From a virus, in the IMG/VR virus record IMGVR_UViG_3300001460_000225, positions 1-23,035 of that record: a stretch of 23,035 nucleotides of DNA; one strand, 5' to 3'. This document shows positions 968 through 7,609 of the stretch, in pieces. Both the position numbers and the translations under genes were made by a program. Under the pieces are notes generated by a model. The model searched no databases and was not told where the DNA came from. It saw only the letters and a program-made list of their open reading frames with translations. Every line of letters starts with the position of its first letter. The first letter of the stretch is position 1.

Positions 968-989
968 ATTTTTCTCCTTTAAGTTATTT

Positions 990-1105
990 GTGGCAGTAGT
1001 TGGTTTAACGGCTTAAAAACAAATGGGGTCCGCGAACCGAACCAACGTCGCCCGCTAGAGCAAGATGCTGCCACCCACCCCATAGGAAATGTCGCTACCC
1101 CGTTC
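990..1105. other. GC-rich structured intergenic element, candidate pseudoknotted RNA
   Basis: The 159-base gap between the helicase stop (1127) and the DUF3310 start (967) is far richer in GC than its surroundings. It holds three sets of complementary arms: 990-996 (GTGGCAG) with 1068-1074, 999-1005 (GTTGGTT) with 1040-1046 (extended by CGG 1009-1011 with CCG 1037-1039 past a 3-base bulge), and 1023-1029 (ATGGGGT) with 1077-1083. The third pair crosses the other two, so the element could form a pseudoknot or two exclusive folds. ACCCC at 1097-1101 offers GGGGT (1025-1029) another partner. Read as plus-strand RNA the outer stem extends to 9 pairs with one G-U wobble (990-998/1066-1074); on the minus strand that position is a C-A mismatch. 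It could be an mRNA leader element of the DUF3310-polymerase message or a separate small RNA. I recognise no known family. Confidence 0.5.
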
Positions 1106-1126: not shown

Positions 1127-2560
1127 CTATAATTTGTATGCATTAACTTTTTTCTTAGCTTTTAATTTATATAAATTATTTCTAGCACGTGTGATTCCTA
1201 CGTACCAAACTCTATGTTCTTCATCACTTTTGTTTTTACTCTTACGAACTGCTTTTTTAATTTTGTTTGGTTGGTCTAAACAAAGTATTACATTGTCTTG
1301 TTCACCACCTTTAAATGCATGTATAGTTGATATAAATATTCTAGCAGGTAAATCTAAATCTTCTCCATTTTCCATCATCTCTTTAATGTATTCCTTATCT
1401 TCATATTCAACCTCTTTGAATGCATCAAACCAATCTAAATCTGGTTCCCAATCTTCCATTTTTTTTCCAATGTATTCTTCAATATCTTTCCATTCTTTTT
1501 CATCTAATATCTTTCCTCTACACCAGGAGTTATAATTAATATGTGCATTGTATACCCTAACTTTAAAAGATTTTTCTTTCTTTGTCTGATAATATAAATT
1601 TCTTTCTCTTAATTCTTTTTTCATACTAACTAATCTACTAATGGTTCTAGTTAATATAACCCATCTTTCTTTTGTTAAATCTACGTGATCTAGATTATTT
1701 ATATACTCACATTCACCTTCATAGTCTCTTGGGTAATAATCTTTTTGTTTTCTTAATCCTTCTATTTTCTCAATAGGTATTTCTGATTGTTCCTGAACTG
1801 ATTTAGATATTCTTTTTGAATACTTTAAAACTTTTTCTTTATCAGATTTTTGACTTATAAATCTATCTACATCAGCACCAGCCCAAGCAAAAATAGCTTG
1901 ATCATCATCACCTGCTAAATAAATATCATCAGTATGTTCTTTTAGTTTATCAAATAATTTCCATTGTAATGGTGATAAATCTTGAGCTTCATCAATAAAT
2001 ATAACTTTAAATTTAGGTAAAGATTCTTTTTCAATTAATTGTTTTATCATGTCATTGAAATCTAATTTCTTTTTTACTCTTTTGTATTCTTTCAAATTGT
2101 CATCAATTGTTTTTAGTATCTTCCATTTAATTTCTTTTTTATTGTGTTCTCCTCTATCATATTCATCTCTAATACTAATATCTCTATTAATTGCTCTACC
2201 AATCATTTGAAAATATGGACTGTCGCAGTTTAGATAATTAATATCTTCCTTATTATACTTGTCGTAATATTTTACTTTAACACCTATCTCTTTACCTATT
2301 GCTTCATAGTCTGATGGTTGCATAACTTTTCCATCATTTAATTCTAATTGATCATATGCAAATGAATGTATTGTTCTAAAGTATGATAGTTTATCATTGT
2401 CTGCAGGCATTCTATCTCTTGCTTCACCTGCAGCTTTTTTAGTAAATGCAAAGTATGCAATGTTATCTAAAGGTGTACCTATTCTAACATAAGCTTTAGC
2501 TCTACTAATTAGTCTGTATGTCTTACCTGTACCTGGTGGTCCATAAAACTTATATATCAT
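1127..2560 (-). CDS. UvrD/Rep-like superfamily 1 DNA helicase
   Basis: A 477-residue SF1A-type helicase with all main motifs visible: Walker A GPPGTGKT at 7-14, motif Ia FTKKAAGEA at 39-47, TIHSFAY near 63-69, LDFNDMI at 166-172, motif II DEAQ at 190-193, motif III GDDDQAIFAW at 217-226, motif V TIHAFKGGE near 412-420, and motif VI VGITRAR at 454-460. It should use ATP to move along single-stranded DNA and unwind duplex, during replication or recombination. It is shorter than bacterial UvrD (about 720 residues) because the inserted domains are small. Its start overlaps the primase stop (TAATG at 2560), so the two are probably translated together. Confidence 0.93.
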   Translation of the reverse strand: MIYKFYGPPGTGKTYRLISRAKAYVRIGTPLDNIAYFAFTKKAAGEARDRMPADNDKLSYFRTIHSFAYDQLELNDGKVMQPSDYEAIGKEIGVKVKYYDKYNKEDINYLNCDSPYFQMIGRAINRDISIRDEYDRGEHNKKEIKWKILKTIDDNLKEYKRVKKKLDFNDMIKQLIEKESLPKFKVIFIDEAQDLSPLQWKLFDKLKEHTDDIYLAGDDDQAIFAWAGADVDRFISQKSDKEKVLKYSKRISKSVQEQSEIPIEKIEGLRKQKDYYPRDYEGECEYINNLDHVDLTKERWVILTRTISRLVSMKKELRERNLYYQTKKEKSFKVRVYNAHINYNSWCRGKILDEKEWKDIEEYIGKKMEDWEPDLDWFDAFKEVEYEDKEYIKEMMENGEDLDLPARIFISTIHAFKGGEQDNVILCLDQPNKIKKAVRKSKNKSDEEHRVWYVGITRARNNLYKLKAKKKVNAYKL

Positions 2561-4203
2561 TATACAATTTCCTCTTCTGTAAAGTCAGCAGTCTCTTCTA
2601 CGTCCTCTTCTTCTTTATCAAATAAATATAAAGGTATGGATACACATCCATTAACACCTGGATATGGTTTACCAGTCTTTTTATGTTTACCAGGGAATCT
2701 TTTCTTTTTACCAAACTCTGGTTGAGGTAATGAATCATCTTTTGTATCAAACATTTTTTGAATCATGTGAGAAGTTCTTGATGAGTCTTTTCTCCAACCA
2801 TTTTCTTTTAGTTCATTGTAAAATTCGTCATAAACAAAATAAGAATACACTTCATCTTTTAAAACATTACCACTTTCAAATGATGCATATGTTTTTGCTT
2901 GTGTACCATTTATATATTCTTTTAAATGTTTTTTTAATATTTCCATTGGTCTGGTTCCTGGAGCCGGTTGCACTGTATCAAGAGTATCTAGTAATCCATT
3001 AATCATTACATGAAAGTCTAAAGGTTTTATAGGAGGAGGTAACACATTTACCTGTGCCATTATTAAACTACCTAATTCTTTTTGATCTCTGAGTTGTATT
3101 ACATTTTTTGCATGCACTACTACAGACTCCCCAGTTTTATTTTCTACTGTAAAATAATATTCAGGATCTGGTTTAAAATCTACTTTGATTAAATTAGTCA
3201 TCATTGGCCAATCAATTTTTTTATCAGAGATAACACCAAATCTTCTTTTAACACATTCAGACTTAACACAAACCGGTGCAAGTAATTGATCATTACAAGT
3301 ATGACCTTTGGTATCTTTCTCCCAGTTTTTTATTTTCTTTTTAATATAATCATCGGTCCAAGTTTCATTGAACTCAAAATAATTTCTACCTGCTTGTAAT
3401 ACTTTCTTAGCCCAATCGTCAGCATATTTCTTTTTAGCAAACACCATGTAGTTATATAAAAATCTATCTCTACCATCATCCATTTTTTCTTTAGATAAAA
3501 TTTCCAGACATGGTGGACCATCTTTAAACTCTTCTGCACCACCTGTAAGTTCTATTTTAACTATGTTTTCAGATATATCTTTTAGTTTAGTTGATGTCAT
3601 TAAATTCATTCCAACAACTTTTAAAAATAAATCTAATGTCATTTCTTGACCAGATGGATCTAATGCAACTCTTTCATTTTTATTAAAGTATGGAAGATTA
3701 ATAAAATTACCATTTACTTTTTGATCATCTGTATTTGTTCCTAGTTTAGTTTGTTTAGGAAATATCTCTGTTGTAATAGGTAGTTTAAATAAAAATAATA
3801 CTTGTTCTAAAAAATCTTTTACTACTTTTGCTTTGACTAATTCTTCTGTAAATACATATAAATGAAGTCCACCACTTTTAGATTTAATAGGTATTAATGG
3901 TAATTTTTTTTCTTGGATTGTATCTAAATAAAATTTTATATCTAAATTCTTATATACTTTAGGATCAATATCTATTGCACCAAATCTTGCTAAACCATTA
4001 TCATCACATGGTTGTATACCAATAGATTTAGTTCCATTTAAATGTTGAGCATAATCTTCTTCAGTAATTAATTTTCCTGACCAACCATAGTCACCAGGAT
4101 TAAATTTTAATTTACCTGTATCTGGATCTTTGTAACCATTTTTAATGTTACAAAAACCAAAGTTTCTTTTTAAACCTGTAAAATATTTTATAAAGTCTTT
4201 CAT
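2560..4203 (-). CDS. Archaeo-eukaryotic-type primase (PrimPol-like), with possible PriL-like cysteine region
   Basis: This 547-residue protein has the features of an AEP catalytic domain: a metal-binding DxD in FGAIDIDPK (D78, D80), SGGLHLYVF with H114 as the nucleotide-binding histidine, and EIFPKQ (146-151) followed by INLPYF (168-173). After the catalytic domain comes PPC (C232), a helical stretch, then HTC (C303), PVC (C312) and SEC (C317). These four cysteines recall the iron-sulfur domain of the primase large subunit PriL; that is inference. The C-terminal third contains a segment around YDEFYNELKENGW that looks like a winged helix, then an acidic tail. It would make primers, and might also extend them, for the neighbouring polymerase. 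AGGA stands about six bases before the ATG. No helicase motif is fused to it. Confidence 0.8.
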   Translation of the reverse strand: MKDFIKYFTGLKRNFGFCNIKNGYKDPDTGKLKFNPGDYGWSGKLITEEDYAQHLNGTKSIGIQPCDDNGLARFGAIDIDPKVYKNLDIKFYLDTIQEKKLPLIPIKSKSGGLHLYVFTEELVKAKVVKDFLEQVLFLFKLPITTEIFPKQTKLGTNTDDQKVNGNFINLPYFNKNERVALDPSGQEMTLDLFLKVVGMNLMTSTKLKDISENIVKIELTGGAEEFKDGPPCLEILSKEKMDDGRDRFLYNYMVFAKKKYADDWAKKVLQAGRNYFEFNETWTDDYIKKKIKNWEKDTKGHTCNDQLLAPVCVKSECVKRRFGVISDKKIDWPMMTNLIKVDFKPDPEYYFTVENKTGESVVVHAKNVIQLRDQKELGSLIMAQVNVLPPPIKPLDFHVMINGLLDTLDTVQPAPGTRPMEILKKHLKEYINGTQAKTYASFESGNVLKDEVYSYFVYDEFYNELKENGWRKDSSRTSHMIQKMFDTKDDSLPQPEFGKKKRFPGKHKKTGKPYPGVNGCVSIPLYLFDKEEEDVEETADFTEEEIV

Positions 4204-4263: not shown

Positions 4264-4278
4264 ATTCACTTAGTGAAT
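4264..4278. repeat. 15-base palindrome at the end of the ssDNA-binding candidate gene
   Basis: ATTCACT (4264-4270) and AGTGAAT (4272-4278) are perfect inverted arms around a single central T. The right arm runs into the stop codon of the upstream gene. It sits just before the GC-rich hairpin at 4222-4253, so the message would carry two successive stems here. Confidence 0.5.
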
Positions 4279-5054
4279 TAGATAATCTCTTCAGTTGGTT
4301 TAGCAATTTTCTCTTCATACTTAGGTTTTGCTTGACCTTTAGACACAGTCTTTTGAAGTTCTTGTGCCATTAAGTATAATTGAGTGTCAGCTTCAACAGA
4401 AATATCTAATGCTCTGTTCATTGAAGGTTTATAGACATGCCAACTCTTACTACCTGCAACTTTACCTGCAGTTTTTAAAGTATAAACTGCTGCATATGCT
4501 GCCGGATTGTATTTACCTTTTTCATCTTGGAACCTGAGATTCTTAATCATTTGATTAATTTCTCTAGCAGGTGTTAAGTTAGATGATCTCATAGTAATTA
4601 CAGCAGGTCTAGGTTCATCACCTAAAACAACTACATAAAAATATGCAGTCTTTTCTAAATAGTTACCATTTGATAATCTCCACTTACCATTTCTTTCCTC
4701 AACGGCATCTGAAGGTACTGACATATGAGTTGCAACAGGCGGAGCTGCTGTATCTCCCATTTCTTGCCATTCTGGATATCTTGTCTGCACGTGTGCAACT
4801 AATATATCCACACCTTTGTCACCATCTATTAATGTACCAAGACCTTTTGCATAGATCATACCAGGTTTAGAACCTTCTACGTACTTTGCATTGCTCTGAT
4901 TACATTCAGGCGATAGTTGATGTAGGATTTTTAAAATCGGTGTAGATACATCATCCGATTTTATTTCTTCACTACCTTTCCCAGAATCATTTCTAAGACT
5001 GATAGTTGCCAGTGCGCCTGCACTGTTCTTCTTCTCAATAGCTGTATTAGCCAT
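4278..5054 (-). CDS. Putative phage single-stranded DNA-binding protein
   Basis: A 258-residue soluble protein. The pattern DVSTPILKILHQLSPECN near residues 35-52, then GVDILVAHVQTRYPEW, resembles a phage protein found near replication genes and sometimes annotated as ssDNA-binding; I recall this from similar phage genomes and cannot confirm it by search. The C-terminus (from about residue 235) is lysine and glutamate rich (KYEEKIAKPTEEII), a loosely acidic tail like those through which many phage SSBs touch partner proteins. I cannot assign an OB fold by eye. A clear AAGGAG site precedes the ATG, and the gene lies between a coiled-coil protein and the primase, which supports a replication role. 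Confidence 0.5.
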   Translation of the reverse strand: MANTAIEKKNSAGALATISLRNDSGKGSEEIKSDDVSTPILKILHQLSPECNQSNAKYVEGSKPGMIYAKGLGTLIDGDKGVDILVAHVQTRYPEWQEMGDTAAPPVATHMSVPSDAVEERNGKWRLSNGNYLEKTAYFYVVVLGDEPRPAVITMRSSNLTPAREINQMIKNLRFQDEKGKYNPAAYAAVYTLKTAGKVAGSKSWHVYKPSMNRALDISVEADTQLYLMAQELQKTVSKGQAKPKYEEKIAKPTEEII

Positions 5055-5083
5055 AATATAACTCCTTATATTTAGTTATTAGT

Positions 5084-5632
5084 TTATTTTTTATTTTTAA
5101 TATACGTTTGATTTCCATCGAACGTATTGAAAAGTTCCTCGGGAATTTCTAGACCTTTGTCTTTTTGTTCCTCTAAAACTTTTTTGAGTGTCGATGGGTG
5201 AACCTTCTCTTCTTGAGTTGGTTCATACCCATTCGACCTCGCAAGGCTAGCATAATCGACAGCCTTGTTATCTTCGCCTTGACCAAATGATACAGTAATA
5301 TTATTTTTTACTATATCACCTAAGCCATTGTCTCGAAGCCAGTGTATGCCTTCAGCTTTTTTATCAGCTTTTAATGTGGCACTATAAATTTTTTTAACTT
5401 TTAAAAATGAACCATCCTTTAAATTTAAAGACTCTAAATTTTGATCTGCCATTATTTTTGGAATAATAACACAACTGTAATGTCGTTCATCTTCTTTTAA
5501 ATCTTTTGCTTGATCTTCTAAAAGTTTTATTTTTTTTTGTATTGATAATAACTTTTCTATTTCTTCTGATAATGTTTCTGTCTCAACAGATTTCATTTGA
5601 TCAGGTGCATCTTTTCGTAGGTCTATTAACAT
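5084..5632 (-). CDS. Conserved phage protein with N-terminal coiled coil, function unknown
   Basis: This 182-residue protein starts with a charged heptad-like helix (about residues 20-50, SEEIEKLLSIQKKIKLLEDQ) that should form a coiled coil. It continues into a compact region with LKDGSFLKVKKIYSAT and WLRDNGLGDIVKNNITVSFG, and ends with HPSTLKKVLEEQKDKG then EIPEELFNTF. I recall this architecture in many phages upstream of replication genes, without an assigned function. It is the first gene after the promoter-dyad region at 5674-5719, has a strong AAAGGAG site 5' of its ATG, and leads into the ssDNA-binding candidate. An early role in DNA handling is plausible but not shown. Confidence 0.8.
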   Translation of the reverse strand: MLIDLRKDAPDQMKSVETETLSEEIEKLLSIQKKIKLLEDQAKDLKEDERHYSCVIIPKIMADQNLESLNLKDGSFLKVKKIYSATLKADKKAEGIHWLRDNGLGDIVKNNITVSFGQGEDNKAVDYASLARSNGYEPTQEEKVHPSTLKKVLEEQKDKGLEIPEELFNTFDGNQTYIKNKK

Positions 5633-5673
5633 AATTTAACTCCTTTAAGTATTTTCTGTTTAACTTTCATAGT

Positions 5674-5719
5674 GATATAAATAAGATCGATTATATCTTT
5701 TGTCAAGACTATTTGTGAA
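5674..5719 (-). promoter_or_regulatory. Promoter with internal dyad upstream of the replication genes
   Basis: Reading the minus strand, two sigma70-like box pairs overlap: TTCACA (5719-5714) with an 18-base spacer and a perfect TATAAT (5695-5690), and TTGACA (5706-5701) with a 17-base spacer and TATTTA (5683-5678). Inverted arms GATATAA (5674-5680) and TTATATC (5691-5697), ten bases apart, cover both -10 boxes. Such a placement is typical of an operator, so a repressor or activator could act here. The message would start within the 76-base gap and run into the gene at 5632. Box matches in AT-rich DNA can arise by chance; the combination with the dyad raises my confidence. Confidence 0.5.
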
Positions 5720-6062
5720 AAATATTTACTTCAATTGGGTAGTAAGTTTTTTCTTGCCTATCCCATTTTAATAAATTGTATTTTCCATTTGTAATATCAG
5801 ATACAACAGAACAAACTACGCCAATAATTGCAGGATCTCCTGATAATAATAAGTAATCATCCGTTGTATAATCTTTTAATAGTGTTCTTAATTTTTGAAT
5901 TAGTGGGCCAGGTGATAAAATAATTTGACTTTTTTCTGGCAAAAGTGTGACAATATGTCCGAACTTTTGTGCTCCTACAACATTGTATTTTGGCTGTCCA
6001 ATTGAACTGCCTGGTATATCTTGTGTTAAATAAACTTTGCTCATTGACTTTTTCTTTTTCAT
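5709..6062 (-). CDS. Small conserved phage protein, function unknown
   Basis: The reading frame codes for 117 residues. The pattern SKVYLTQDIPG, then FGHIVTLLPEKSQIILSPGP, then DDYLLLSGDPAIIGVV and a C-terminal LLKWDRQEKTYYPIEV resembles a small protein I remember from other phages, with no known function. The first six residues are MKKKKS before a second methionine (MSKVY, ATG at 6044-6042). I prefer the inner start: the likely -10 box TATAAT (6072-6067) would start the RNA near 6060, at or inside the outer ATG, and remembered relatives begin near MSKVY. Neither ATG has a good Shine-Dalgarno site. The gene is divergent from the SNF2 helicase gene, with only 44 bases between the outer starts. 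Confidence 0.75.
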   Translation of the reverse strand: MKKKKSMSKVYLTQDIPGSSIGQPKYNVVGAQKFGHIVTLLPEKSQIILSPGPLIQKLRTLLKDYTTDDYLLLSGDPAIIGVVCSVVSDITNGKYNLLKWDRQEKTYYPIEVNIFHK

Positions 6063-7540: not shown

Positions 7541-7541
7541 C

Positions 7542-7592
7542 GACTATAGTCCCCACTACAATCAATCCCGGCAGCTGAGTGCCCAACCTCCC
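7542..7592. other. GC-rich intergenic island at the convergent junction
   Basis: Right after the SNF2 stop comes a palindrome GACTATAGTC (7542-7551), then a C-rich, GC-rich stretch up to 7592 with a short hairpin GGCA (7570-7573) / TGCC (7580-7583). The core ACTATAGT recurs at 7598-7605 in the next palindrome. Composition differs sharply from both flanking genes and no reading frame explains it. Confidence 0.4.
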
Positions 7593-7593
7593 A

Positions 7594-7609
7594 AAAAACT
7601 ATAGTTTTT
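7594..7609. terminator. Possible bidirectional terminator between convergent genes
   Basis: The 16 bases form a perfect palindrome, AAAAAC-TATA-GTTTTT. Read on either strand it gives an A-run, a small stem and a T-run, as expected of a two-way terminator between the SNF2 and holin genes. It overlaps the last codons of the holin gene. The stem is weak because it is mostly A-T, so function is uncertain. Confidence 0.45.

Follow-up and report, generated by a model that had tools for sequence, protein, structure and literature searches.

A candidate accessory non-coding RNA with two interlocked pseudoknots behind helicase genes of aquatic phages

Results and discussion

A GC-rich block between a helicase gene and a DUF3310 gene

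The window analyzed here is the whole 23,035-nt stretch of IMG/VR record IMGVR_UViG_3300001460_000225. On its minus strand it carries a gene for a UvrD/Rep-type (SF1) helicase (1127-2560; Pfam PF00580, 3.1e-30, and PF13361, 4.9e-15) and, downstream of it, a DUF3310 gene (719-967; PF11753, 7.8e-10). The two are separated by a 159-nt gap (968-1126). Within it the block at 990-1101 has a GC content of 0.554, versus 0.312 window-wide, and is the most GC-rich of all 112-nt blocks of the window. An earlier note on this DNA had described a 159-base gap with a GC-rich block ahead of the DUF3310 gene, and both the coordinates and our GC scan agree with that description. Read along the minus strand, the stop codon of the helicase gene is followed by a lineage-specific hairpin (1109-1124; UUACAC-aaca-GUGUAA), which also occurs in some other contexts and is missing from the KERYGYS, NKAY and SNF2 contexts. 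Next comes the core of the putative RNA (990-1101), delimited by two covariance models (R1 and R2) and an alignment of 67 sequences. It extends from the first strand of helix A to the 3′ strand of helix C, and it is followed by the ribosome-binding site AAAGGAG of the DUF3310 gene (974-980, minus strand). This site is seen in those alleles of the lineage that carry the element (filled alleles); alleles lacking it (empty alleles) have an ATGA stop/start overlap in its place.

We searched IMG/VR with the helicase and obtained 79 loci, about half of which had the block directly behind the helicase stop codon; in the others the next gene starts immediately, mostly as an ATGA stop/start overlap. 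A pattern scan of IMG/VR found the element in more than 100 contigs or loci among the matches listed. In this pattern helices C and E were specified in part, and helix D, the distal part of E, the 5′ strand of B and the A pairing were left free. Model R1 recovers these loci at 90-140 bits and matches the window at 986-1114 (122 bits, E 2.3e-28), with R2 matching at 988-1079. Pairing is also kept in two loci that were found through the helicase, without the pattern (L346 and L355), and L355 has compensatory changes in helices C and E.

Five covarying helices on the minus strand

The folding energy of the single sequence was not significant on either strand (z = -1.1 for the minus and +0.2 for the plus strand), so the case for an RNA rests on comparison. 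From the alignment of 67 homologues RNAalifold independently yielded three helices, with the consensus GUGGYAG/CURCCAC for C, GCUCUAACGAGC for D and GUUGGUU-CGGGN/NCCCG-UUA-AAYCAAC for E. On the minus strand of the window, C is formed by GUGGCAG (1068-1074) and CUGCCAC (990-996), D is the hairpin GCUC-UAGC-GGGC (1050-1061), and E is formed by GUUGGUU-CGGUU (1035-1046) and AGCCG-AACCAAC (999-1013), the latter strand interrupted by a uua bulge. A fourth helix, B (consensus GGNG/CNUC), pairs GGUG (1076-1079) with CAUC (1064-1067). Taken together, B, C, D and E have canonical pairs in 98.4% of 1,790 pair cells, versus 90% in shuffles, and 165 cells are changed on both sides, versus 58 in shuffles. 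Sliding the partners along the alignment reduced the canonical cells to 31-55% and destroyed the signal.

On a tree of the homologues, pairs changed several times independently. All four pairs of D and all five distal pairs of E include changes on both sides, and C occurs in the compensatory forms GUGGUAG/CUACCAC and, in L355, GCGGUAG/CUACCGC. The third pair of B is A-U in 38 sequences, U-A in 24 and C-G in five, with no exceptions, a pattern that takes at least six independent double changes on a tree from which the variable pair columns were left out. The fifth helix, A, joins the 5′ flank (GGGRUnnGNN) to the loop of E. In the window its 5′ strand is GGGGU-A-GCGA (1092-1101, minus) and its 3′ strand, A′, is UCGC-GG-ACCCC (1025-1035, minus); 1025-1029 pairs with 1097-1101, extended by 1032-1035 with 1092-1095, and position 1035 is common to A′ and distal E in the window sequence. 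Across 45 distinct strand combinations, strands scored 21.5 with their own partner and 17.7 ± 0.34 with permuted partners (z = 11.2).

In this comparative model, all five helices are backed by compensatory change, and C, D and E form a three-way junction. Since B crosses C, and A crosses both C and E, the predicted fold contains two interlocked pseudoknots. Some of its unpaired residues are invariant. The earlier note had proposed a structured, pseudoknot-forming RNA with complementary arms in a crossing arrangement, and had set covariation of the arms in homologues beforehand as the test that could refute it; the structure passed. For the particular crossing pair that it named, 1023-1029 with 1077-1083, homologues gave no sign of conservation: own partners scored no better than permuted ones (z = -1.2). 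The crossing was right in kind, as 1025-1029 does pair across other helices, but the partner is 1097-1101; the second crossing, 1076-1079 with 1064-1067, is an addition of the present analysis. A two-state switch, which had also been suggested, is not indicated, as the five helices are mutually compatible.

Read as the minus strand, the 67 homologues contain 97 G-U cells versus 5 A-C cells, which assigns the RNA to the minus strand. The proposal of a plus-strand or antisense RNA, drawn from a G-U pair in the outer stem, was therefore mistaken. We also considered that the block might be a small protein gene, since a 54-codon open reading frame (979-1143) is open in the window and in the same frame of 42 of the 67 homologues. 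We rejected this reading because the frame is not conserved: it contains stops in the other 25 homologues, indels between homologues are not multiples of three, and the lengths from anchor to anchor vary in all three phases. The compensatory changes track the helices, and the frame has no Pfam match. A small protein gene is thus barely credible. One context has a slippery UUUAAAC close to the element, which was dropped from consideration as it is missing from the other contexts.

Relation to known RNAs and known genomes

At the Rfam 15 gathering score the window has no match. A search of Rfam 15 with three diverse members at a permissive E of up to 10 gave chance matches alone, with no ribozyme among them, and no tRNA or tmRNA was found. 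We found no description of the element in the literature. A putative self-cleaving ribozyme, which would cut apart the helicase message and the one downstream, would fit a small, doubly pseudoknotted RNA with invariant unpaired residues that is present in single copy in phage genomes. HDV-like ribozymes are of similar size and also have an interlocked double pseudoknot, with their strands in the order P1 P2 P3 P3′ P1′ P4 P2′. The phage RNA departs from this order (A5′ B5′ C5′ B3′ D E5′ A3′ E3′ C3′), as it puts the 3′ strand of its long helix inside the loop of hairpin E. Given this and the lack of an Rfam ribozyme match even at the permissive threshold, we regard a ribozyme as quite improbable.

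Judged by flanking genes, the nearest isolate is pelagiphage HTVC027P, which uses the host RNA polymerase and has none of its own (PMC12753301). Searching the INPHARED isolates by blastn with five queries returned the gene flanks of HTVC027P and chance matches, without the element, and the element was found neither in the complete HTVC027P genome nor in the 41-63 kb relatives searched. Among 84,980 bacterial and archaeal genomes, a moderately strict pattern found nothing credible; we took a lone pattern match in an archaeal MAG (GTDB contigs) as chance. The same applies to weak model matches in L396-L398, which lie within coding sequence.

One copy behind a helicase gene

The upstream gene could be identified in 78 loci, and in all of them the RNA stands behind the stop codon of a same-strand helicase gene, at a distance of 11-31 nt. 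This distance is constant per lineage, at 11, 13, 25, 28 or 31 nt (the 11 nt of SNF2 loci being read by eye), and the longer spacers hold an extra hairpin. The upstream helicase is mostly UvrD-type, with several C-terminal variants, and in a few loci SNF2-type. In the SNF2 context the element ends the operon of the SNF2 helicase, with a convergent gene next; two of these loci (L254 and L363) have other small genes between the SNF2 gene and the element, which is still at the operon end.

In 18 records that bear the element, which are genome fragments, R1 and R2 gave a single credible copy per record. In the records examined the element lies either after UvrD or at the end of the SNF2 operon, never both. 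Records with the element after UvrD, including the window, had none at the SNF2 3′ ends inspected, and for records that carry it at the end of the SNF2 operon each UvrD/DUF3310 junction found was a plain ATGA overlap. One copy in two alternative places speaks for a function independent of position and against the regulation of DUF3310 or polymerase; the argument comprises few independent relocations because the SNF2-type carriers are interrelated.

These arrangements bear on whether the RNA could be a leader or riboswitch of DUF3310 and DNA polymerase. The earlier note had raised a leader of the polymerase message, and in the window and most UvrD-context loci these two genes do follow the element, with a new ribosome-binding site. 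Elsewhere, however, other genes follow it, so that DUF3310 is not a constant partner. A leader role is excluded for copies in the SNF2 context, which abut a convergent gene, and no alternative expression-platform pairing was seen. We therefore consider a leader or riboswitch very unlikely.

A stronger rival is a cis-acting 3′ UTR element of the helicase operon. Such a knot at the edge of the terminating ribosome would block exonucleases or ribosome run-on and set the dose of the upstream helicase, and would also break the ATGA translational coupling to the next gene. Consistent with this are the constant position just past a same-strand stop codon, the location at the operon end in the SNF2 context, and the ATGA coupling that is seen in empty alleles and in none of the filled ones. 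It accords less well with the single copy per record even though both helicase genes are present, with the movement of the RNA between unrelated helicases, with the other small genes that precede it in L254 and L363, and with a sequence conserved far more than a roadblock requires. On balance a cis-acting role is unlikely, but it is the main alternative; behind it, in order of decreasing likelihood, come a selfish element, a ribozyme and a leader.

A more distant variant, without helix A and with its own B, C, D and E, stands at the same end of the SNF2 operon (seven matches), and also occurs behind small genes inserted after SNF2. It was located at L202:5435-5531, L254:4087-4175, L361:9057-9139 and L363:5478-5568 and in L359, with B as GAGG/CCUC, C as GUAGUGG/CCACUAC and a UAAG bulge in E. 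In several loci it overlaps the stop codon of the convergent gene.

Presence and absence between near-identical phages

Within one UvrD lineage the element occupies 17 of 80 loci, a distribution that takes eight changes on the helicase tree. Near-identical phages differ by the exact presence or absence of the element at the ATGA stop/start overlap. L280 and L281 share 99.2% identity in the 1.5 kb before and the 1.2 kb after the site, and differ by a 135-nt insert. L291 and L293 differ at exactly the same site: L293 is empty (GATATGACAAATAAAG), L291 is filled (GATATGA-element-ATGACAAATAAAG), and ATGA stands on both sides. Comparing the empty L349 with the filled L088, we found 21 mismatches within 163 nt of the junction and one between -164 and -2243. 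The L349 flank is 98% like that of an empty relative, which suggests that the element was lost there by a short recombination event. L281-L283 compared with L280 look similar to L349 compared with L088/L350, with very short recombination tracts at the junction.

This precise presence and absence, together with the lack of the element in HTVC027P and the 41-63 kb relatives, indicates that the element is accessory. Exact alleles and loss by short tracts also imply that it behaves as a swappable, dispensable unit.

A selfish mobile RNA could also produce such a pattern. Lacking an ORF, it would insert at the ATGA overlap and rely for its movement on machinery encoded at another place, much as HEARO/IscB or TnpB guide RNAs do. 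This idea fits the filled and empty alleles, which correspond exactly and have ATGA on both sides, as well as the patchy spread and the short replacement tracts at the junction. We considered homing by gene conversion as the source of the mismatch tracts beside the insert and rejected it, since the empty alleles carry the foreign flank and the events are thus losses. In the two clear cases, the exchange tracts indicate loss through recombination with empty alleles. Moreover, two copies were never found in one record, and only two genomic locations were observed. A comparison can be made with the HEARO or IscB-associated RNA (RF02033), likewise a compact pseudoknotted RNA in mobile or phage DNA with insertion beside ATGA. 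HEARO prefers insertion sites directly upstream of ATGA or GTGA; we found such a site at L291/L293 and none at the SNF2 3′ end. The phage RNA differs from it further in its helix order, its single copy, the lack of an Rfam match and the lack of an HNH/IscB ORF alongside: HNH (PF01844) exceeded the cut-off in none of 13 records, and the neighbouring ORFs are DUF3310, polymerase and small genes. A selfish element is hence improbable.

A possible trans-acting RNA

We consider it most likely that the RNA works as a non-coding RNA in its own right. The fuller reading that we favour, to which we give nearly an even chance, is that of an accessory non-coding RNA of the phage, produced as the 3′ tail of the helicase mRNA and probably acting in trans. 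A minus-strand RNA of ~110-130 nt would be transcribed as this tail and fold into the C, D and E three-way junction, with the short helix B threading C and the 9-10 bp helix A tying the 5′ flank to the loop of E. The compact, presumably nuclease-resistant fold may then act in trans as a binding partner of a protein or ribonucleoprotein from either host or phage. Expression of one copy along with the replication genes seems to be what counts, rather than the identity of the gene downstream.

Phage RNAs of known function offer two further comparisons. HK022 put and EAR-type antiterminators resemble the RNA described here in being structured RNAs of phages or operons that are transcribed within early or replication operons; in the early phage genes, put suppresses both pausing and termination (PMC9378689). 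However, put is shorter and acts on downstream terminators, whereas the RNA described here, which has no Rfam match to these types, is also found at operon ends facing convergent genes, into which read-through would run antisense. The location at the SNF2 end thus argues against read-through of terminators in cis of the put/EAR type. The pRNA of the phi29 type likewise has a three-way junction, is present in single copy and is flexible in position, and its action in trans is what we propose for the RNA here. It comes from an unrelated phage group, and the phage RNA has neither an Rfam match to it nor a tie to packaging genes.

More speculatively, and with the balance clearly against it as yet, the element may belong to a class of trans-acting phage RNAs that has not been described before. 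Each genome would then bear a single double-pseudoknot RNA, attached as an exchangeable cassette to the 3′ ends of helicase messages in several abundant aquatic phage lineages, and this RNA would be an effector in host takeover or anti-defence. Pelagiphage-related phages are among the most numerous biological entities. Their genomes are packed with protein genes, and a conserved, elaborately folded single-copy RNA in them, which near-identical phages gain or lose as a whole, suggests a function at the RNA level that protein-centred annotation has overlooked. Because the family is sharply defined by two covariance models, a strand, boundaries, and empty and filled alleles, its function is directly testable.

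Other features of the neighbourhood

Different small genes lie between the element and DUF3310 in L010, L011, L008, L028 and others, and these varied insertions suggest a hot spot for gene gain. In L135 and L350 a 159-aa ORF lies between DUF3310 and polymerase; its N-terminus is CxxC...KPLxxF-like and resembles phage HNH endonucleases. Another GC-rich block of the window (7541-7598) lies between the SNF2 helicase gene and a convergent gene for a small membrane protein, where relatives have the more distant variant of the RNA. It is near-identical in G001 (L384) and conserved in G009 (L387), and with its CTATAGTCCCCACTATAAT arms it may be another structured element. Finally, three consecutive genes of the window (4278-6062) match Pfam families named after gp34, gp33 and gp32 of phage Pam3, and are adjoined by a TOTE-type archaeo-eukaryotic primase domain (2560-4203).
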